DNA from: Candidatus Altimarinota bacterium
GTDB taxonomy: Bacteria; Patescibacteriota; Gracilibacteria; GCA-2401425; JAJOLG01
Length of the DNA: 12,202 bases
NCBI GenBank assembly: GCA_021129445.1
Contig: JAJOLG010000005.1
Span: 3,934-16,135 of the forward strand
Direction of reading: 5' to 3'
The notes beneath the pieces are model-generated. The model saw only the letters and a program-made list of their open reading frames with translations. It was not told where the DNA came from and ran no database searches. Of the stretch, positions 189-12,202 are shown one piece after another. The stretch's first letter is position 1, and every line of letters starts with the position of its first letter. The translations under genes were made by a program, and so were the position numbers.

Positions 189-719
189 ATGGCTATCACT
201 AAACAACAAAAAATTGATCAATTATCTGAATTATCTAATCAAATCAGAGAAGCAAAATCTGTTGTTTTTGCACAATTTAGCTGAGTTTCAGTTGAAAAAG
301 CAAAAAAAATCAGAAGATCTTTGGCTGAACAATGAGCAAAAATGAAAGTTATTAAAAAAACTTTGATTAAAATTGCAGCAAAAGAAGTTTATTGACTTGA
401 ACTTTCTGATGAATCACTTCAATGACAAATTGCTGTTATTTGTTCAAATGATGAAATTGTTTGATGACCAAAAGTTATCAAATCGTTTTCTAAAGATTTA
501 GATATTAAATTAACTTGATGAATTTTTGAAGAAAAAGAACTTTCTAAAGCGCAAGCGCAAGAGCTTGCAAATATGTTATCGAAAGATCAACTTATCGCTA
601 AAATGCTATGAAGTATGATGGCACCAATTCAATGATTTTACTCTGCAAATAAAGCAGTTCTTTCAGGATTCGCAAGAGTTCTTGATGGACACAGAGAAAA
701 TCTTGAAAAACAATCTTAA
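189..719 (+). CDS. rplJ: 50S ribosomal protein L10
   Basis: A 176-residue protein, the normal size for L10, read with UGA as Gly. L10 (uL10) anchors the L7/L12 dimers to 23S rRNA at the base of the ribosomal stalk. The N-terminal RNA-binding part is recognisable: SVVFAQFSGVSVEKAKKIRR near residues 24-43, KVIKKTLIKIA near 53-63, and the VGGPKVIKSF stretch at 91-100. The C-terminal helix that carries L7/L12 follows. Ten of its twelve glycines are TGA and two are GGA, with TGA-TGA pairs at residues 92-93 and 110-111. The ATG follows the L10 leader with no Shine-Dalgarno motif. rplL follows after 48 bases, and the two are almost surely co-transcribed. Confidence 0.96.
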
Positions 720-767
720 TTTTAAATTAAGAAAAACAATTTTTATTAAAAATATAATTTTATTATT

Positions 768-1169
768 ATGTCTGAAACTACAAACTTACCAGAATTATCT
801 AAAGAAGCACAATGAATTCTTGATGCTGTTAAAACTTTATCAGTAATGGATTTAGCTAACTTGGTTAAACATTTAGAAGAAGAATTTTGAGTATCTGCTG
901 CTGCACCAGTAGCTGTTGCTGCTTGATGAGCTGCTTGATGAGAAGAAGCTGCTGAACAAACTGAATTTACAGTTGAATTAACTGCTGTTTGAGCATCAAA
1001 AATCTGAGTAATTAAAATCGTAAGAGAAATTACTTGATTATGATTAAAAGAAGCAAAAGAAGTTGTTGATTGAGCTCCAAAAACTGTTAAAGAAAAAGTT
1101 TCTAAGGAAGAAGCTGAAGAAATCAAAGCTAAACTTACTGAGGCTTGAGCTACTGCTGAAATTAAGTAA
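768..1169 (+). CDS. rplL: 50S ribosomal protein L7/L12
   Basis: A 133-residue protein with the standard L7/L12 layout. Residues 1-45 are the dimerisation domain. Residues 46-62 form a flexible Ala/Gly hinge. The globular C-terminal domain recruits elongation factors and shows TEFTVELTAVGASKIGVIKI (65-84), REITGLGLKEAKEVVDGAPK (86-105) and KEEAEEIKAKLTEAGA (113-128). It is a multi-copy stalk protein bound to L10. All 12 glycines are TGA, which makes this gene the clearest proof of the recoding. The hinge holds two TGA-TGA pairs (Gly53-54 and Gly57-58). The stop is TAA. There is no visible Shine-Dalgarno sequence; the start context is TATTATTATG. A strong terminator follows 80 bases later. Confidence 0.98.
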
Positions 1170-1250
1170 TGACGCAATTGTTTTTCGAAGAAAAAGAATT
1201 GATGACATTACTTATTATATAAGATGAAGTAATTTTGCTTGAAAAATATT

Positions 1251-1280
1251 AAAAACCCGATTTTAAAATCGGGTTTTTTT
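1251..1280 (+). terminator. Rho-independent terminator of rplJ-rplL
   Basis: CCCGATTTT (1256-1264) pairs perfectly with AAAATCGGG (1265-1273), with flanking A and T runs extending the palindrome. A T-rich tail runs past 1280. It is one of the few GC-containing stretches in the gap and sits 80 bases after the rplL stop, so rpoBC is not part of this unit. Confidence 0.93.
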
Positions 1281-1406
1281 GTTTTTTTATTAGTTTTTTT
1301 ACTGATTTAATCTTTTAGATTAAACTTGTATTTTTTTCTAAATAAAAAAATCAGAAGTATTTTATAAGAATGCTTCAACAAAAATATTTTTTTTATTTTA
1401 AAATAA

Positions 1407-1435
1407 AAAAAGACTTCAAAGCTTGAAGTCTTTTT
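1407..1435 (-). terminator. Bidirectional terminator, stronger on the minus strand
   Basis: AAAAAGACTTCAA (1407-1419) pairs with TTGAAGTCTTTTT (1423-1435) around a 3-base loop. Read on the minus strand the stem is followed by a long run of T. On the plus strand the T run is interrupted after five bases. It would end minus-strand transcripts coming from 1687-2544, and it also backs up the rplL terminator. Confidence 0.85.
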
Positions 1436-1532
1436 ACCTTTTGTTTCTTGAAAAGCTATTAAATAAAAGCTGTTCAAAAACATCATTTTGATACGATCAT
1501 AATTTTTGTTTTTATTTTTATAAAATTTTTTT

Positions 1533-1554
1533 GATTATCTAAAATTAGATAATC
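1533..1554. repeat. Perfect 10-bp inverted repeat
   Basis: GATTATCTAA (1533-1542) pairs with TTAGATAATC (1545-1554), with a 2-base centre. No clean T run follows on either strand, so it is a poor terminator. It lies in the 3' region of the minus-strand gene. It could be an RNA stability hairpin or a dyad binding site; the role is unknown. Confidence 0.6.
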
Positions 1555-1686
1555 TTACTTTAAAAAAATATTTTTTCACTTTAAAAAATTTTACAAATGA
1601 TAAAAATATTTTTTTATAGTAATTTAATTATAGAAAAAATTTTTATAAAAACAACACAATTTTATAAAATAAATGTTACAATTAAA

Positions 1687-2544
1687 TTATTTATATTTTC
1701 AATAATAAAATACTTCTTCTCATATTTTTGTTTTTCAATAATTAGGCAACAAAATTATAAAATCCTCTTCTGCAATTATTTCAGTATCTCAATCAAATCA
1801 AATTAATTCTCATTTTTTAATTTCTTTAAAATTATCTATTCAATCTTTAAACAAAAAATTTCATGTTTTTGTAGTTTTAATTTTATACATTACAATCAAT
1901 TGATTGTTATAATTATTTACATTTCAATCTATTAAATTAAAATATTTTAATAAATTTAAAGATGTTTTTAATCAAATATCAAATGCATCTGGGGATTTAT
2001 GTTGTCAGCATTCTAATGTAAAAGCAATTTTTCCTATTGAATGCATATAAAGATTGGTATCTCATGAAAGCATATCTCATCAATTCTTTTCCCATCAGAT
2101 AATAATTTTATCTGTTCATATAATTTTTCAAATTTTCAATTCATCTTGAAAATCCTCAGCAAACATAAAAGGTTCTGATTTAGAACTTGTTGAATGTATA
2201 TCTAACAACACATCAGAATTATCCAATAAATATTTTAATTCTTTTACTCTATTTACCTCGTAATCATCAGATTTTTTATCAAAAAATTTTTTTTTAAAAA
2301 TTCTATTTAAATTATAATTAATTTGTCTAGTGCCTTTTTTTATAGCCTCCTCATTTCAATAAGCTAAAATAACTTTTCATTTTAATAATTTAATTTTTCA
2401 ATTATTAAAATTATCTTTTAAATAATCTACAACCTTAACTCATGAAATTTCATCTCAATGAATTCATCAAAATATTGTAATTACTGGTCATTTTATTTTT
2501 GAATCAAAAATAAATACTCCGGATATATTTTTAAATTCTTTCAT
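1687..2544 (-). CDS. Succinylglutamate desuccinylase/aspartoacylase-family zinc hydrolase (M14-type)
   Basis: A 285-residue protein read with UGA as Gly. Its motifs match the AstE/AspA branch of the M14 metallocarboxypeptidase fold, which removes acyl groups from amino acids such as N-acetylaspartate or N-succinylglutamate. GGIHGDEISG (residues 26-35) supplies zinc ligands His29 and Glu32. GNEEAIKKGTRQINYNLNR (63-81) matches the family NP-A-GxR-x-DLNR substrate-binding motif. LLDIHSTS (113-120) supplies the third zinc ligand, His117. FTLECGQ (175-181) holds the catalytic glutamate Glu178. No signal peptide is seen, so it is likely cytoplasmic. The C-terminal part (about 205-285) resembles the extra beta domain of the family. 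The start ATG follows a TTGCAC/TACATT promoter candidate. It appears to be a single-gene unit with no pathway partners nearby, so the substrate is unknown. Confidence 0.88.
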
Positions 2545-2564
2545 TTTGTTATTTTTATAATTTA

Positions 2565-2593
2565 AATGTACAAAATATTCACTTTATGTGCAA
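2565..2593 (-). promoter_or_regulatory. Candidate promoter of the M14-type hydrolase gene
   Basis: Read on the minus strand, TTGCAC (2588-2593) is followed after 17 bases by TACATT (2565-2570). Spacing is ideal and each box is partly matched. The -10 box ends 20 bases upstream of the start codon, leaving a leader of about 13-15 bases. The match is modest in an AT-rich background. Confidence 0.35.
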
Positions 2594-2639
2594 AAAATAA
2601 TTAAACTGGTAAAATATTTTTTGAGATTATTTTTTTAAA

Positions 2640-2879
2640 TTAAAATTTTCCACCCCCTGATATAAATGCCTCTTCTTTTGTTATATTTATTTTTTGGTAC
2701 CTACTTTAAGTTAATATTTTACAATTGTAAAATATTTATTATTGATTATTTTTCTCAAGAAAGATATTTTGATATTTAATATCATCATTAGCCCCATTGT
2801 TTACAACAGTTTGAAGCAATTTTGGTATTTCATTAAATCTAAATTTTTCATAAACTGGTTTTGATATTAAATCACTCTT
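2640..2879 (-). pseudogene. Remnants of a decayed minus-strand gene
   Basis: Two protein-like stretches lie in the same minus-strand frame. The first, 2739-2879, gives 46 codons, with segments such as KPVYEKFRFNEIPKLLQ, and ends in TAA-TAA. The second, 2640-2699, ends KEEAFISGGGKF and then TAA. No start codon precedes the first stretch, because TAA lies in frame just upstream. Base and codon composition look coding rather than like the flanking A/T runs. All four glycines are GGN and none is TGA, unlike most genes here. I do not recognise the family. It could be a decayed gene, two short peptides, or chance. Confidence 0.35.
2713..2736. repeat. 24-bp perfect palindrome
   Basis: AATATTTTACAA (2713-2724) is followed directly by its exact reverse complement (2725-2736). 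No T run follows on either strand. With no loop it is better suited to a dimeric DNA-binding protein than to a terminator. It lies between the divergent M14 hydrolase and dnaE genes, and it separates the two remnants of the decayed frame. Confidence 0.65.
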
Positions 2880-2953
2880 TTATTCTCATATAAAATTTTT
2901 TTGATATATGAAAAATTTTTTTTAAGTTTAAAAAAAATTTAAAAAAATTTTAC

Positions 2954-5900
2954 ATGAATTTTATTTATTTACAAAATCATAGTTATTATTCACTTTTACA
3001 AGGCCTCCCATCCCCAAAAAAACTCGCATCCTTCGCAAAAGAAAAGTGAATGAAAGCAATTGCAATGACAGATTCTTGAAATCTGTATTGAGCTTTGGAA
3101 TTTTATCAAGCTTGTGAAAAGGAGTGAGTAAAAGCGATTTTGTGATGTGAAATGTTTATTGCGCCGAGGTCTTTGCACAAAAAAGAAAATAGGGCAGATT
3201 GAAGACCTTTTAATATGCTTTTTTTGGCTGAAAATAATGAATGATACAAAAATTTAACAAGGCTTTCAACAACTTCATTTTTGGAATGAATGTACTATAA
3301 ACCTCGTATTGATTATGAAGTAATTGAGAAAAATAAAAAATGATTGATTGCGATTGATTCTTGAAGATGGACGAAATTGGCTAGTTTGATTATTGAAAAT
3401 TGATCAGAGGAAGAAATTGAGAGTTTAATTAAAAAACATTTAGAAATTTTTTGACCAGAAAATTATTTTTTTGGGATTTTGGACCATAAAAATACACCGG
3501 TTCAATTGGATTTAAATGAAAAATTAAAAGAATATTGAAAAAAATTTTGAGTAAAATGTGTGGCTTTACAAAATTCTTTTTACCTAAATCCAGAAGATGC
3601 AGAGGTTCAAGATATTGTGACTTGTATTGCAACTTGAAGGGATTTGGATGATTGAAGAAGAGATTCGATGATTGATGAGGATTACTCTTTGAAGGATCCA
3701 GAAGATATGATAAAATCTTTTGAAGATTTTCCAGAAGCAATTGAAAATACTGAAAAAATTGCGGATAGATGTAATGTTTCGTTTGAACTTTATGTTTATC
3801 GTATTCCGGATTTTTATCCGCCAAAGGATGTTCAAGAAAAAATTTGAGTAAAAACACCGATTGAATATTTTAGGCATATTTGTATTGAGTGATTAAAAGA
3901 AAGGTATTCTGAATTTGTAGAGCATTTGCAAAAAATTTCTTGGAAAAATTTGGATGAGTCAACAATTGATAATCAAAAAATTGATTTAACTCCAAAATCA
4001 AAAAGAGAGGATGATATTGATAATTCAAAAGAAAAAAAACTTGCAGAAGATTCAGAAAAAGCAGGTTTAAGGATAGCTGTTCGTTTTGAGCACGAGTTTA
4101 AAATTATTCAAAAAATGTGATTTGAATCGTATTTTTTGATGGTGTCGGATTATTGTAAATGGGCTCGGGATAATGATATTATGGTTGGGCCTTGAAGGTG
4201 ATCGTGAGCGGGGTCGATTATTGCATATGCGATGAAAATTACAAATATTGATCCTTTGCGTTATTGATTGCTTTTTGAGAGGTTTTTAAATCCAGATAGG
4301 GTATCGATGCCCGATTTTGATATTGATTTTGAAGATAATAAAAGGGATCAGGTAATTGCATATGTGACAAAAAAATATTGAGCTGATCATGTTGCACAGA
4401 TTTCAACATTTTGAACAATGGCAGCAAGAGCAGCAATTAAAGATGTTTGAAGGATTTATTGAATATGATTTTGAGAAATGAATGAATTTGCGAAGCTTAT
4501 TCCAGAAAAACCTTGAACAAAACTTGCAGAAGCATGGGAAGAAGAGGCTCTTTTGAGAGAAAAAGTTGAATCAGAGGAAAAGTTTAAGAAAGTTTGGGAC
4601 GCAGCAAGGATTTTAGAGTGAAATGTAAGGCATATTTCTGTGCATGCTTGTGCGGTTGTAATTGCTGATAAGCCTCTTGAAAATTACACGGCACTTCAAC
4701 ATCCGCCAAAAAATGATAAAATTATTATTTCACAATTTTCCGCAAAACCGCTTGAAACTTTATGACTTTTGAAGATGGATTTTCTTTGATTGAAAAATTT
4801 ATCAATTTTAAAAAATGCAATTCATGTGATAAAACAGGTTAGAAATGTTGAAATTGATATAAATAATATTCCAATTGCGGATAAAAAAACTTTGGAATTG
4901 TTTAAAAAATGAGAAACAACTTGAATTTTTCAGTTTGAATCTTGATGAATGAAAAAATATTTGAAAGAATTGGAGCCAACAAGATTTGAGGATTTGATTG
5001 CAATGAACTCGCTTTATCGTCCTTGACCAATGGAATATATTCCAACTTTTATCAAGTGAAAACATTTTCCATCAACGGTAAAATATCCACACGAAAGTTT
5101 GGAGGAAATTTTGAAAGAAACTTATTGAATTGCGGTGTATCAAGAGCAAATTTTACAAATTGCACAAATTTTTGCTTGATATTCGCTTGGACAAGCGGAT
5201 TTGCTTCGTAGAGCGATTTGAAAAAAAATTGCCGAGGAAATGGTGAAACAAAGGTGAATTTTTATTCAGAAAGCAGTTGAAATTTGAAGAGATGAAAAGT
5301 TGGCAGAGCATATTTTTGATGATATTATTGTACCTTTTGCGGGGTACGGGTTCAACAAATCTCATGCAGCCGCATATTCAATGGTGGCCTACCAAACAGC
5401 ATATTTAAAAGCCCATTATCCAACCGAATTTATGGCTGCACTTTTAATGTCAGATAGGTCAAATGCAGACAGAGTTGCAGTTGAAATTCAAGAGTGTAAT
5501 CAAATGTGAATAGATGTTTTGCCACCAGATGTGAATGAATCTTTTGAAAATTTTACGGTAGTTTGAGAGTGAAAAATTCGTTTTGGGCTTTCTGCGATTA
5601 AAAATTTGTGAGATAATTGAATTGAAGCGATTATCTCTGAAAGAAAGGCGAATTGAAAATTTAAAAATATTACAGATTTTATTTCTAGACTTGATTATAC
5701 TCATTTAAATAAAAAAAATTTTGAGGCTTTGATTTTTTCGTGAGCAACGGATTGTTTATGAGAAAGAAATGCTCTTGCTGACTCTTTACTTGAAATGATT
5801 GAGTTTTCAAAAGCAAAATGACATGAAAAAGACAGTGGTCAGATGGATTTATTCTGAATGATGAGTGTCTGATGAGAAAATGTGTCAGAATTTAAATTAA

Positions 5901-6637
5901 AAGATGTAAAACCTGCTGATATTGAGACAAGACTTGATTGGGAAAGGGAGTTTTTGGGTCTTTTTGTATCTCAGCATCCACTTGCAGGGCTTGAAAATTA
6001 TATTTTAGCAAGAACTTTTGATTTGGAAAAATTGGATGAAAAATCTTTAAAATCCGATAAATTAAAAACTTTTGCAGGTTTGATTACTTGATTAAGAATT
6101 ATTAGAACTAAAAAATGAGAAGACTTTTCAGTGTTTAATTTTGAAACTCCTCAGTGAAATTTTGAAGCAGTATTTTTTCCAAAATCTCATGCAAAAATAA
6201 AAAATAGAATTGCAGAATGAAAATCATTTTTAATAAAATGAAAAATAAAAATTAGAAATTGATGAATTCAAATTGTGTGAGAGGAGTTGATAAAATTGAA
6301 GATTGAAGAATTAAGATGACATGCAAAGGAGCAAAATGTTTTATGAGAAAATAAACATTTTCATCAAAAAGAGGTAAAAATTCCAGTTTTGCATGATGAA
6401 TTTAAAAAAGAATGGGTGATAAAAGTTCCGTATTCTACAACAGAAAAGCATATGGCAAAATTAAAGGAAATGCTTTTGAAGAATACAAAAGAGGAATGAT
6501 GACATTCTGTAAGGGTGATTTTACCTTGATGAAAAGAAGTTGATTGGCCGAAAATGGTTGATGCAAATTGAAAATTAAGAAGTGATGTTTTGGAGATGTT
6601 TAAGACTTGAAGTGGAGATTTGGAGAAATTTGAGTAG
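2954..6637 (+). CDS. dnaE: DNA polymerase III subunit alpha (DnaE type)
   Basis: A 1227-residue replicative polymerase, read through with UGA as Gly and with no frameshift. The N-terminal PHP domain (about 1-270) is recognisable but has lost ligands: HxH is Q7-N-H9, TDH is T39-D-S41, and NDVHY is Q206-N-S-F-Y210. The polymerase core is intact. It has GPGRGSGAGS (412-421), PDFDIDF (453-459) with catalytic Asp456 and Asp458, and the third Asp at LLKMDFLG (Asp609). It also has the YRPGPME motif and [15 protein letters not shown] (about 795-809). QMDLF (963-967) fits the beta-clamp-binding motif. An OB fold begins near 1040. Residues about 325-372 are a charged insertion. No DnaQ-like exonuclease is fused, so this is not PolC. 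The stop is TAG, the only one in the window. It appears to be transcribed alone. Confidence 0.97.
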
Positions 6638-6643
6638 AAAAAT

Positions 6644-6683
6644 AAAAAAGAAGGCTAATCGCAATGAAAACTCCTTCTTTTTT
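6644..6683 (+). terminator. Bidirectional terminator between dnaE and the DUF4846-like gene
   Basis: AAAAAAGAAGG (6644-6654) pairs with CCTTCTTTTTT (6673-6683) across an 18-base loop. A T run follows on the plus strand (through 6685), and on the minus strand TTTTTTATTTTT follows the stem. It starts 7 bases after the dnaE TAG and lies 37 bases beyond the stop of the converging minus-strand gene, so it can serve both. Confidence 0.88.
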
Positions 6684-6719
6684 TTATTAAATTTAAAAAA
6701 AATGGGATTGCAAGTTATT

Positions 6720-8219
6720 TTATTCAAATCTTTTTATTACAGGTTTTCAGTTTGGATCATATTTTTCTGCATATTCTAAAAATTTATCCAATTCAAACCA
6801 TGAATTATATTTACTGAAATCATCTTTTTTAACTATTTTTTTAACATTATTTTTATCTATTCAAGTTAAATTTGCCATAAAATTATTTCATTTATTAAAT
6901 ATTCAAAATAAACTTGCTTTTAGGTTGCTTAAAATTTTAACAAAAAATTTTTTTTCTGTAAATTTATCATTATAATAAGCATATCAGTTATTATATGGTT
7001 TGTTTTTCAAAATTGTAAAATCTTGAGTTGGTATGTCTCATTGTCATAAAACAACATTTTTTTTTCAATTTAAATCTTCAGCTACATCCATAATCATATA
7101 AGCATGACCTGTTTTCGATCATCATTTTCTTAAAACTATTAAATCTCAAGGTAAAACATTGTTTTTATTAATTGTTTTTAAGTCTCTTTTTAATACATAT
7201 GTACTTGAATATGCAAATTGATATAACATATATTTTTTAAAACTTTTACGATCTAAATTTTTAATTAAATATGGGTTTTGTAGGTTATTTTCCAATTTGA
7301 AATCAATTTTATTAATAGAATTTTTTGCAAAATTGTATTCTCACCGTAACCTCATAACAGAATCTGCACATTGTTGATTTTTCCAAATATCCCAATTTAA
7401 AATTCATGAAACTCTGTGTTTATCCCATAATTTTTTTCAATTTCTAGAATAAACTCATGTAAATTCCTTTTTTAATGGAAGATTTCTAATCCATTCCGAA
7501 AAACTTCATTTTTTTACATTAACTCGTTTAATTGATTGTGGTTTTTTGATAAAATCAATTAATTTAACAGAATTATTTCTATCATAATTAAATAAATAAG
7601 AAAAATTATTTTTATAAAAATTGTTATCAATTTTTTGCTTTCAAATAATTTTTTTCTCAATTTTAGAAATTTTTTTAATTGTATTATATTCATTTATATC
7701 AACTTTTAATGCAATTGATTCTTTTTGTCATTTTTCAATTTTCTGATTTTTTATTATCTTATCGTTTTTTATTTCAATTTTTTTCTCAAAAACTTTAAAA
7801 GTTTTTTTTAATTCTAAAAAATTTTTTAGAATTTCATCTTTATCTCAATTATTTTTTTGATTATTGTAAATTGAGATAATTTTTTTCTCTGATTTTAAAA
7901 TATTTTCTTTAATTCTGCCTCAAAGTTTTTCATTTTTTTCAATTTTTTCTTCCAATTCAGAAATTTTTTTATTAATTGTATTAAATTTATCTGAAATATT
8001 CAAATGTTTAAAAACAAATATATCATCATTTAGTGATGATAAATCTCATTCTAAGATTTGTATATCATTTTTTAGATTATTAATTTGTACTTGTTGAGAT
8101 TTAATATCTGCTATTAAAATATTATTTTTTTGTAAAATAAAAATAGAAAAAGTTGTAAATATACAAAATAACAACATTGATATAAAATTCTTTTTAAGAA
8201 GATCTGTAATTTTTTTCAT
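6720..8219 (-). CDS. Membrane-anchored coiled-coil protein with a DUF4846-like domain
   Basis: A 499-residue protein. It has a basic N-terminus, one membrane segment (about 11-29), then a long Lys/Glu/Ile-rich coiled-coil stalk (about 35-200). From about 238 the sequence matches the pattern I know from DUF4846: GSFSEWIRNLPLK (238-250), QQCADSVMRLRGEYNFA (282-298), PGDLIVLRKG (357-366), GHAYMIMDVAEDLNGKK (371-387), and then GQGDIPTQDFTILKN (392-406). Cys284 and His372 sit in contexts reminiscent of papain-like Cys-His hydrolases; this is my inference, since DUF4846 has no assigned activity. Topology would put the stalk and domain outside the membrane. The layout recalls coiled-coil cell-wall hydrolases or their activators. 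Most glycines are TGA. Own promoter and terminator candidates flank it. Confidence 0.8.
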
Positions 8220-8247
8220 TTAATTCATTTTTTTTATAAATCAGAAT

Positions 8248-8256
8248 ATTATACCA
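8248..8256 (-). promoter_or_regulatory. Extended -10 promoter of the DUF4846-like gene
   Basis: On the minus strand TGGTATAAT gives a perfect TATAAT with the upstream TGn of an extended -10 element. It lies 28 bases before the ATG, predicting a leader of roughly 20 bases. The -35 position falls inside the terminator hairpin of trpS and does not match consensus. The only perfect TATAAT I noticed in an intergenic space of this window is this one. Confidence 0.5.
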
Positions 8257-8257
8257 A

Positions 8258-8286
8258 TAAAAAAACACTTTTTATAAAAAAGTGTT
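8258..8286 (-). terminator. Terminator of trpS
   Basis: AACACTTTTT (8264-8273) pairs with AAAAAGTGTT (8277-8286) around a 3-base loop. Read on the minus strand, a run of T follows the stem down to 8258. It lies about 20 bases after the trpS stop and directly abuts the promoter of the next gene, separating the two transcripts. Confidence 0.87.
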
Positions 8287-8306
8287 GTTATTTTATATAA
8301 AATATT

Positions 8307-9314
8307 TTATTTTATTCAAATTCTCCTTCTAGCTTTTTCCAAAACCTTCATCGCGTTCCATTTCATCTTTTTCGCTCAAATTTCTCTAATTTCAGCCAAA
8401 AAATTTTTATCTTTTTTATATTTTTCTTCCAATTCCTCTCTTTTTTTCCACATTGGTCAAAAATATTTTTTCATATTTTCAAAAAGTGCTTTTTTTGCAT
8501 CTCAATATCAATAATTTCATTTTAAGTAATTTTGTCTCATTTTTTCAATTTCTTCTTCATTTGAAACCAATTTATAAAGTGCAAAAATATTACATTTATC
8601 AGGATTTTTTGGTTCTTCAACGGTTTTTGAATCGGTAGAAATTGACATAATTTTTTTCTTAATTTCATTTTCTGTTCAAAAAAGCGGAATTGTATTTCAA
8701 TAAGATTTTGACATTTTTTGTCAATCTAATCACGGAATTGTTTTTAATTCTTCTTGAATTTTTGCTTCTGGAATTGTAAAAACTTCATTTCACTCTTCGC
8801 AAAATGTATAATTAAATTTTTTTGCAATATCTCTTGTAATCTCTAAATGTTGAATTTGATCCTTTCAAACTGGCACTTTATCGGCTTTTACGATTAAAAT
8901 ATCAGCTGCCATTAAAACTGGATATGAAAAAAGTGCATGGTTTGGTGACACTCAATTTGCAATTTTATCTTTATAAGAATGTGCTTGTCAAAGCATTCAT
9001 ATTCATGTAATTGATGATAAATACCAATAAAGTTCGGTTACTTCTGGAATATCAGACTGGACATATAAAATCACTTTTTCAGGATCTAATCAAACTGCCA
9101 AATAATCCAAGATTGTATTTTTCACATTTTCACGCAAAATTTTTGCATCTCATGGTTTATTTAAAGAAGTTAAAGAATGCAAATCTGCAATCATCATAAA
9201 AATTTCATCTCAATCTTTTTTAGAATTTTGAGCATCGACCATTTGTTTCATTGCTCAGAAATAATTTCAAATATGCAATTTTCATGATGCTTGAATTCAA
9301 GTTAAAGTTCTCAT
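8307..9314 (-). CDS. trpS: Tryptophanyl-tRNA synthetase
   Basis: A 335-residue class I aminoacyl-tRNA synthetase that charges tRNA-Trp with tryptophan using ATP. It has the usual length for bacterial TrpS. The sequence opens MRTLTGIQASGKLHIGNYFG, containing the HIGH-type motif (HIGN at 14-17). DQIQHLEITRDIA (152-164) is typical of TrpS. LDGQKMSKSYGN (196-207) holds the KMSKS loop at 200-204. It is a compact enzyme without extra domains. Its genuine tryptophans are TGG and its motif glycines are TGA, as expected where UGA means Gly and only UGG is charged with Trp. The ATG at 9314 gives the family N-terminus. A terminator follows. No Shine-Dalgarno site is visible. Confidence 0.97.
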
Positions 9315-9382
9315 TTTTTAAAAATTATTTTATTTTTTTTATGATAAAAAATTTTTTTTAATAATAAAAATTTTTTTTAATT

Positions 9383-9414
9383 AAAAAAATCTCAGAAATT
9401 TTTTTCTGAGATTT
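9383..9414 (-). terminator. Terminator of the gene at 9433-10350
   Basis: AAATCTCAGAAA (9387-9398) pairs with TTTCTGAGATTT (9403-9414) around a 4-base loop. On the minus strand a run of T follows (9383-9389). It lies 19 bases after the stop of the upstream minus-strand gene and about 70 bases before the trpS start. Confidence 0.9.
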
Positions 9415-9432
9415 GTGATTGTTTTTAATTTT

Positions 9433-10350
9433 TTATCTTATTCTTATATAAGATTGTTTTCATGATTTTGATGTATTTCTGATCCAAGAACAAATTTTTT
9501 GTCAGAAATCATTATAAACTGCGAATAATTCTTGACTTACATTTGATGGATTTTCTTCATCGTATTTTGTAATTACCCTTATAACTTGTGATCATAAAAT
9601 ATTTTTTTCTTCTTTTAAGGAGTCAATTTTTTTCTTGATTTCTGCTGGACAATTTTCATATTTTTCATCTTCACAATATGCTCTTTGATAAGATGTAATT
9701 ATTGCTTTTTCTCTTTTTCATAAAAAACCTTTTTTAATATAGTCATCAGGGCAATAATGTATAACTTTTGCTTTTAATGTTTCATTATCTCAATTATACA
9801 TTTCTAAAAGTGATTTTGATTGTCAAATTAAATACGGCAATCAATGTTTTCATAATCGTTTATTATATGCTAAATCCATTGCAGATAAAATTATCATTTC
9901 ATTGAATTTTTTTCATCATCATTGTTGAGAAACATTTTTATTTTCACATTTTTCACAAACTGGGCATTCTTTTTGTACTAATTCTTCACCAGTTCAAGTT
10001 CAAACTTTACTAGATTTTTTTACTACTTTTACTCATTCTGTTGAAATTGCATCTTCAGAAATTCACGAGTAGGCTGCTTCTAAATCAGCTTTTAAGGATA
10101 TTATTTCTTCATCTTTTTTTACTAAATTTTCATTACAAGTTTGAATTGCACCAGATTGAGATTTAATTGTCTCATCTTTTTTTTCGATACTTGCCTTTGC
10201 TTTTTTCAGAGTTTTTAAAGCTTTGTCAATTTTTTGATCTTTTTCTTGTATTAATGTTGTTAAATCTTGGGTTATGTAAAAATAACCAGCTGGTCATCAA
10301 ATTAACAAGATTACTGTTAAAAAAATTGCATAAATTTTTGTTTGGTTCAT
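9433..10350 (-). CDS. Membrane-anchored coiled-coil protein with a Cys cluster, unknown function
   Basis: A 305-residue protein I do not recognise. It has a short N-terminus and one hydrophobic segment (about 6-26) containing a Gly-Gly-Pro, then a coiled-coil stretch (about 28-95). A Gly/Ser/Thr linker leads to a Cys-x2-Cys-x2-Cys cluster (residues 129, 132 and 135). A tandem-UGA triple glycine follows (144-146), then a more globular part (about 148-305). The protein has eight cysteines (72, 129, 132, 135, 200, 226, 234, 287), many for this genome's proteins. They could bind a metal or form disulfides outside the membrane. The single N-terminal segment without a lipobox suggests an anchored protein facing outward. 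It shares the TM-plus-coiled-coil plan with the gene at 6720-8219 but not its C-terminal domain. It is transcribed alone, with its own terminator. Confidence 0.8.
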
Positions 10351-10491
10351 ATTTTTATTAAATTATTTTTTATTTTTATATTATTTTTTCTTTTTTTTTC
10401 ATTAAAAATGAATTGTAAAAAAAATTTTTTATTTTATTATAAATTTTTTTTCCAAAAAATAAATTTATTTTCAAGATAAATTGAAAAAAAT

Positions 10492-10519
10492 TTGACTAAA
10501 ATTTTTTTTTTTCTATTTT
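10492..10519 (+). promoter_or_regulatory. Candidate promoter of infC-rpmI-rplT
   Basis: TTGACT (10492-10497), a 16-base spacer and TATTTT (10514-10519) form the same arrangement as the rplJ promoter candidate. It predicts a leader of about 30 bases before the infC start. The rest of the divergent gap 10351-10491 is A/T runs with no clear signal for the minus-strand gene. Confidence 0.45.
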
Positions 10520-10556
10520 TTTCTGGCAATTATTAATTTTTTTAATTTAATTTTTT

Positions 10557-11105
10557 TTGGCAAAGTTTAGAAAAAGAGCAAAAGGTAGGTATTTACAAAA
10601 AAATGCCTGTAATGAGGAAATAAAATTTCCAAAAATCAAAATCATTTTACCAGAAGAATGATGAGTTAAAGAGGTGTCTAGCAAAGAATGATTGCAAATT
10701 GCAGAAGAACATTGATTAGATTTAGTTTTAATTTCAGAAAATTCAAATCCGCCACTTTGTAAAATTGTGGATTACTGAAAATTTCTTTATGATTTGAAGA
10801 AAAAAGAAAATAAGAAAAATAAAACTCAAAATAAAACTGAAATTAAATGAATTAGACTTTCTTTGAATATCTGAGAACATGATTTTAATCTAAAAGTTAA
10901 GCAGGCAATTTGATTTTTAGAAGATAAAAATAAACTAAAAGTTGAAATTAGATTTAGATGAAGGGAGATGGCTTATCAAGATATGTGAGTTGAGAGAATG
11001 AAGGAATTTGCGGAAGCATTAAAAGATTTTTGAAAAATTGACCAAGAGCCAAAATTAAATTGAAGAAAAATTTTTATGTCGATTACGCCGATAAAAAAGA
11101 AATAA
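10557..11105 (+). CDS. infC: Translation initiation factor IF-3
   Basis: A 182-residue IF-3, which binds the 30S subunit, keeps 50S away and checks start-codon pairing. The N-domain shows NEEIKFPKIKII (19-30), LQIAEEHGLDLVLISENSNP (46-65), then CKIVDYGKFLYDLKKK (68-83), followed by a charged linker. The C-domain shows IGEHDFNLKVKQA (105-117) and VEIRFRGREMAYQDMG (129-144). The start is TTG at 10557: an in-frame TAA lies at 10548-10550, only TTT TTT lies between, and no in-frame ATG occurs before the conserved part. IF-3 genes of other bacteria often use rare starts (AUU in E. coli) so that IF-3 represses its own mRNA. No Shine-Dalgarno site is seen in the T-run leader. It is first in an operon with rpmI and rplT. 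Confidence 0.95.
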
Positions 11106-11131
11106 ATAAAAATTCAAAATAATTAAATATT

Positions 11132-11326
11132 ATGAAACAAAGAGTTAGATCAGCTGTAAAAAAAAGATTTTACAAAACAAAATGAGGAAAATGAAAAGTT
11201 ATGAGAGCAAAAGCAAATCATAGACATAGATTAATTCCAAAATCAAAAAGAATTAAGCAAATGTCTTGAAAAACACATTGTTTGGCTTCAATCACTCAAA
11301 ATAATACTTATTCAAAAGCACTTTAA
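11132..11326 (+). CDS. rpmI: 50S ribosomal protein L35
   Basis: A 64-residue, strongly basic protein in the standard infC-rpmI-rplT position, 26 bases after infC. L35 (bL35) is a small 50S subunit protein. The sequence is divergent but the pattern fits: AVKKRFYKTKGGKGKVMRAK (8-27) corresponds to the conserved AAKRFKVTGSGKIKR region, and ANHRHRLIPKSKRIKQMS (28-45) to the SHLLTKKSSKRKRRL region. The TGA-coded glycines at 22, 23 and 25 fall where the family has glycine. It was identified by both sequence and gene order. The start follows AAATATT with no Shine-Dalgarno site. Confidence 0.93.
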
Positions 11327-11361
11327 TTGTGTGTAAATTTCAAAAAAATAATTAATTTAAA

Positions 11362-11706
11362 ATGACTAGAGTAAAAACAGGTTTTGTCACTAGAAGAAGA
11401 CATAAAAAAGTAATCAAACAAGCAAAATGATTTAGATGGGGTAGATCTAAACTTTTTAAACTTGCAAAAAATGCAATTGCTAAATCTTGAATGAACGCAT
11501 ACAGAGATAGAAGAGTTAAAAAAAGAACTTTCAGAAGACTTTGGATTTCAAGAGTTTCTGCGTTTTTAAGAACAAGATGAGAAAAATATTCTACTTTTAT
11601 AAATAAAATGCAATTAAAAAATATTGTTGTAAATAGAAAAATGATGGCTGATTTAGCTGCGCAACATCCACATGCAATGGAAGAAATTGTAAAAAAAGTT
11701 GCATAA
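11362..11706 (+). CDS. rplT: 50S ribosomal protein L20
   Basis: A 114-residue basic protein of normal L20 length. L20 (bL20) is essential for early 50S assembly and in several bacteria represses its own operon. The hallmark segments are present: MTRVKTGFVTRRRHKKVIKQ (1-20), AKGFRWGRSKLFKLA (21-35), AYRDRRVKKRTFRRLWISRV (46-65) and NRKMMADLA (91-99). Both TGA (residues 23, 43, 73) and GGT (7, 27) are used for Gly. The last gene of the operon, it lies 35 bases after rpmI and is followed by a strong terminator. I saw no clear L20-binding pseudoknot in the spacers. Confidence 0.97.
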
Positions 11707-11880: not shown

Positions 11881-12202
11881 ATGAAACAAATTTTCTTACT
11901 AATTTTAATTTTATCATCATTTTTTTTATCATCCTGTGTTGAAATACCAGAAAAAACATGAATTGAACCAATTTTTATTGAAGATAATTTAAAAAATATT
12001 TGAGATGTAGAAAAAATTTTAGATACTTGAATTTCTGAAAATGATGATTGAATTCAAAAAAATGAAGATGAAAATACAGAAACTAATACTTGAACTGCTA
12101 TTTTAAATTCACAATCTTGATCAGATTTGTGAACTTGAAAAATTTTAGATAATGAATCAAATCTTGATTTGTGAGAAAATTTAGATGATGAAGTAAAAAC
12201 TT
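11881..12202 (+). CDS. Acidic predicted lipoprotein, truncated by the window end
   Basis: The first 107 residues are visible. The N-terminus is a short lipoprotein signal: MKQ, a hydrophobic stretch (4-16), then Leu-Ser-Ser-Cys with the lipidated Cys at residue 19. The mature part is very rich in Asp, Glu, Asn, Thr and Gly and has few basic residues. It has short loosely repeated units such as ILDTGISEND and SGSDLGTGK and no fold I recognise. Such low-complexity acidic stretches usually act as flexible spacers on the cell surface, and a folded domain may follow beyond the window. Glycines in this part are TGA. It lies alone after the rplT terminator, so it has its own promoter. Confidence 0.82.

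Follow-up and report, generated by a model that had tools for sequence, protein, structure and literature searches.

The stretch of DNA analysed here (the window; 12,202 nt, positions 3,934 to 16,135 of the forward strand of contig JAJOLG010000005.1, assembly GCA_021129445.1) carries ten genes when retranslated with translation table 25, in which UGA encodes glycine. Nine of the ten ORFs then match a named family, most of them far above the cut-offs. The forward strand carries rplJ (uL10; 189-719; NF000955, 128.5 bits for a cut-off of 85), rplL (bL12; 768-1169; TIGR00855, 157.6 bits), dnaE, encoding the alpha subunit of DNA polymerase III (2954-6637; NF004226, 1245 bits), infC (IF-3; 10557-11105; TIGR00168, 171.6 bits), rpmI (bL35; 11132-11326; PF01632, 33.9 bits for a cut-off of 28.9) and rplT (bL20; 11362-11706; TIGR01032, 126.5 bits). 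On the reverse strand lie the genes for an AstE/AspA-like zinc carboxypeptidase (1687-2544; PF24827, 82.9 bits) and a DUF4846 protein (6720-8219; PF16138, 137.4 bits), trpS (8307-9314; TIGR00233, 289.6 bits) and, at 9433-10350, the gene for a 305-residue protein without known family, which has a hydrophobic N-terminus and a cysteine cluster, CPVCEKCENK. A lipoprotein-like ORF, of which only the start is present (11881-12202, forward strand, nine TGA), continues past the contig end. Neither tRNA genes nor Rfam elements were found inside the window. Contig C8 of the same assembly, on which the unusual CCA tRNA described below lies, may directly follow, since it begins with the gene that adjoins rplT in the sister genome (G000:C8:29-1132) and the window contig ends after rplT and the lipoprotein-like ORF.

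Over the ten genes, TGA accounts for 198 of the 227 glycine codons and GGN for the other 29, and every gene ends with TAA or TAG. All glycines are TGA in rplL (12 of 12) and in trpS (23 of 23, with no GGN), as are 10 of 12 in rplJ, while dnaE contains 72 TGA codons and its motif GPGRGSGAGS is written with three TGA and two GGG. The counts that a preliminary description had given for rplL, rplJ and this motif are thus exact, and its statement that conserved glycines are TGA in every gene extends to the AstE-like (25 TGA), DUF4846 (21), infC (12), rpmI (3) and rplT (3) genes; the gene of the 305-residue protein has 17. It had also warned that calling with the standard code would break these genes, and indeed table 11 yields only five ORFs of at least 80 residues in the window, all antisense, and recovers none of the ten. 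The check that it had proposed, retranslation with table 25 and comparison with uL10, bL12, DnaE and TrpS, gave matches to all four families.

The meaning of the codons was then read directly from alignments beyond the window. The genome (G000) is a draft of 673 kb in 77 contigs with 25% G+C. About 302 kb of it and its rpoB locus were set against proteins from the standard-code relatives G001, G045 and G018 and against a few additional loci, with all TGA, CGG and CGA codons masked in order to keep the alignments unbiased. TGA aligned with glycine at 1,685 of 2,782 positions, with glycine leading the next residue by 3,420 lnL, and it makes up about 85% of the glycine codons in the survey. In DnaE columns with a conservation of 90% or more among standard-code relatives, all 24 TGA codons fall on glycine. 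TGG was aligned with tryptophan at 158.6 of 262 positions. Although it is the commonest UGA reassignment in bacteria, the reading of UGA as tryptophan (code 4) is already refuted and virtually impossible, since TGG aligns with tryptophan, TGA sits in conserved glycine columns and glycine stands 6,643 lnL above tryptophan at TGA. These alignments fully support a predicted reading of UGA as glycine and of UGG as tryptophan in this genome, in agreement with the preliminary description, which had UGA as glycine throughout and TGG as tryptophan: window codon counts, conserved DnaE columns and genome-wide likelihoods all point the same way. We also considered a chimeric bin, which was rejected, as TGA is glycine on each of the 21 contigs sampled and dnaE, itself rich in TGA, clusters with that of the standard-code sister.

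Table 25 does not describe the whole code, however. At the 15 CGG positions of the survey, tryptophan was the best residue, 36.3 lnL over arginine; this call was robust to the removal of any single position, and 15 randomly drawn arginine positions were called tryptophan in 0 of 2,000 draws. CGG occupies tryptophan positions in LigA (PRWAVAYKFPA), in a class I synthetase (QRYWGEP) and in AlaRS. At the 13 CGA positions, arginine was best, with tryptophan 27.7 lnL lower. By sequence comparison, CGG is thus shown to be a predicted tryptophan codon and CGA an arginine codon in this lineage, so that of the earlier assignment to code 25 the glycine part stands and the use of table 25 as the complete code does not. 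One of the 15 positions, CGG codon 405 of the window's own dnaE (4166-4168, forward strand), falls in a column occupied by lysine or arginine in relatives and favours these residues, which speaks against a clean tryptophan reading at that site. The DUF4846 gene also contains one CGG, at 7344, and its product has no solved relative against which to judge it. A tRNA with anticodon CCG (G000:C5:3026-3102) has an A1-U72 pair, a tryptophan-like G73 and an arginine-like A20. A20 is an arginine identity element of tRNA; G73 is also found in the tryptophan tRNAs of this genome and its sister, and A73 in all their other arginine tRNAs. Charging of this predicted CGG-reading tRNA would fall to the TrpRS encoded by the window's trpS. 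An apparent assignment of CTC to arginine in the initial codon tally was an artefact of antisense ORFs and disappeared once overlapping ORFs were removed.

UGA as glycine has been described as restricted to JAEDAM01 and of single origin (PMC13293708, citing Ivanova 2014), and another study found UGA to be a stop in all of its MAGs of the class Gracilibacteria (PMC11393006). In our sample, in-frame TGA in glyS is confined, among 60 genomes of the class, to G000 and the families f12 and f15. We equate f12 and f15 with JAEDAM01 from their code and from the split dnaE of f12, whose PHP and polymerase parts lie at separate loci in its genomes (G011, G022, G031, G041, G049 and G057). G000 is the sole sampled member of its family, and G001 the sole other sampled genome of its order. 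G001 uses the standard code: it has both RF1 and RF2, the latter with the SPF motif; its dnaE stops at a TGA within an ATGA overlap with the start of the next gene; TGA terminates 14 of its 116 matched ORFs; and no tRNA with a UCA anticodon is among its listed tRNAs.

Trees were built from DnaE, from RpoB and from four genes (DnaE, RpoB, IF3 and L20). In the RpoB tree, G000 lies beside G001 and a standard-code genome; its rpoB is cut by a contig end and lacks its start. The DnaE tree joins G000 to G001 at 100, with all f12 and f15 genomes apart at 100, and the four-gene tree does the same at 100/99, with a separate code-25 clade at 100/99. The minimum number of changes of code is two on both trees. 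The preliminary description had named Absconditabacteria or Gracilibacteria as the lineage, understood here as the known code-25 clade. This call was not supported, as the gene trees place the genome by a standard-code genome and away from f12 and f15. It is distant even from this nearest relative, with a DnaE identity of about 52%.

It might be argued that UGA became glycine only once and that G000 belongs to the code-25 clade as a deep or fast-evolving branch, misplaced by the trees: the same codon has moved to the same amino acid, CGG as tryptophan occurs in the code-25 clade too (PMC8629427), and f12 and f15 are assigned to the same class by the database. A single code-25 clade was rejected by the AU test with p values of 3.9e-6 for DnaE, of just 0.033 for RpoB, which leaves this reading some room, and of 0.026 for the four genes, a moderate support from alignments in which several rows are compositionally skewed. 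Against it stand the union with standard-code G001 at 100 in the DnaE and four-gene trees, the strength of the DnaE rejection, and the fact that an AT-rich composition should draw G000 towards the code-25 clade, not away from it. In addition, dnaE is split in the Absconditabacteria-type family f12 and whole in G000. We consider a single origin improbable. Because its nearest relative in the sample still uses the standard code, the reassignment in G000 appears independent; given the placement in the trees and the single JAEDAM01 origin in the literature, the best reading is a second origin, in which UGA would have become glycine once more, independently of JAEDAM01.

How UGA would be decoded in G000 was approached through its release factors and tRNAs, along the lines of two further checks that the preliminary description had proposed. 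No match to the release-factor family, RF1 or RF2, was found anywhere in the draft assembly. In other code-25 genomes the same search did detect release-factor genes containing in-frame TGA, indicating that the sequence is missing from the assembly, and since RF1 must exist, we interpret this as an assembly gap; the synteny of the release-factor loci with the sister revealed no clean gap. A loss of RF2 would accompany the change of code. G016 (family f17), given as 100% complete, has a single match to release factors, and its DnaE, RpoB and GlyRS genes are free of in-frame TGA, possibly a case of RF2 loss without reassignment. Neither a covariance model nor a simple anticodon and T-loop pattern revealed a tRNA-Gly(UCA) among the 26 tRNAs of G000. 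This absence proves little, as about a dozen expected tRNAs are missing from the draft too, with Met, Glu, Leu(UAA), Thr(UGU), Ser(GCU) and Arg(UCU) not found in G000 and all present in the sister.

On contig C1 of G000, the canonical glycyl-tRNA synthetase gene (5989-7395) has a strongly diverged second copy (GlyRS2; 4556-5947, reverse strand) as its direct neighbour. No second glycyl-tRNA synthetase is among the matches listed for the other 59 genomes, f12 and f15 included. GlyRS2 scores under the curated cut-offs, and in the glycyl-tRNA synthetase tree it could not be placed, on a branch of length 8.9. The canonical copy groups with families f7 and f16 and not with G001, a position that suggests transfer of synthetase genes among lineages. 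An additional tRNA has the anticodon CCA (G000:C8:1944-2019, forward strand). It lies beside tRNA-Lys(UUU) and has a C1-G72 acceptor pair and A73; it is not the orthologue of tRNA-Trp(CCA), which lies at C4:12833, and it has no full-length match in the 59 relatives. Its anticodon arm has nine exact matches in viral contigs, but most of these are tRNA-Pro(UGG) read on the opposite strand, which makes them uninformative.

These two genes, found only in G000 among the 60 genomes searched, offer a candidate route: the CCA tRNA, distinct as it is from the tRNA-Trp(CCA) orthologue, would be charged with glycine by GlyRS2, and a change of its C34 would let it read UGA but not UGG. The counterparts in GlyRS2 of Thermus E188, R220, E239 and R311, residues with a role in binding glycine and ATP, are conserved, but its anticodon-binding part retains only 8 of 19 invariant residues. 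That no tRNA with a UCA anticodon turned up also speaks for this route, though little, given the many other tRNAs missing. C34 is known to be changed in other tRNAs, to lysidine in tRNA-Ile2 and by C-to-U editing in trypanosomatid mitochondria. However, an unmodified CCA anticodon would read UGG, which is clearly tryptophan, no modification enzyme was identified, and the acceptor stem is without the usual bacterial glycine elements. We therefore regard this route as a tentative, minority possibility, and the fuller scenario of a second UGA-to-glycine origin with its own machinery (GlyRS2 and a C34-changed CCA tRNA with A73), together with a convergent change of CGG to tryptophan, as rather unlikely in its entirety. 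A tRNA-Gly(UCA) that escaped detection is the simpler and most likely answer: a glycine-charged, UGA-reading tRNA of this ordinary kind would lie in the unassembled part of the genome, and the second glycyl-tRNA synthetase may be the enzyme that charges it.

Taken together, our data are very probably best explained by a code in which UGA is glycine and only UAA and UAG are stops, arisen in the lineage of G000 itself, with CGG as tryptophan and CGA as arginine alongside. Glycine has moved almost wholly to TGA in a genome of 25% G+C, and in the same lineage CGG has turned into a predicted tryptophan codon while CGA was kept for arginine. New here, in a single fragmented MAG with a distant sister, are the independent position, the combination of CGG as tryptophan with CGA as arginine, and the second glycyl-tRNA synthetase. 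If the second origin is true, the question of why UGA becomes glycine can be tested by comparison with a standard-code sister. The shared use of CGG for tryptophan hints that both changes travel together in small AT-rich genomes, and the duplicated glycyl-tRNA synthetase provides a concrete handle on the capture of a stop codon. In practice, a gene caller whose choice of code follows taxonomy would pick the wrong one here and break nearly every gene.

Among known systems, table 25 has been described in JAEDAM01, in the Absconditabacteria (SR1) and the Gracilibacteria BD1-5 (PMC4032931, PMC8629427, PMC13293708). G000 resembles them in that UGA is the main glycine codon or one of the major ones, that UGG is tryptophan and that UAA and UAG are the stops, and in its low G+C content and reduced genome. 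By contrast, it lies on a separate branch by standard-code genomes, has a second glycyl-tRNA synthetase, in contrast to the matches listed for f12 and f15, and, unlike f12, keeps dnaE whole. Both CGA and CGG have changed to tryptophan in Absconditabacteria, and CGG in some Gracilibacteria, Anaerococcus and RFN20 Bacilli (PMC8629427). Like the lineages with CGG as tryptophan, G000 has CGG on tryptophan positions, a tRNA(CCG) with G73, rare CGG codons and AGA as the main arginine codon; it differs in that CGA is still arginine, that its tRNA(CCG) keeps A20 and that it belongs to a different lineage. Finally, the gene trees place G000 among standard-code families of its class, a position that fits the Gracilibacteria in the older GTDB sense (Peregrinibacteria and Abawacabacteria), presumably its group; it differs from these in that UGA, reported as a stop in that group (PMC11393006), is predicted to encode glycine.
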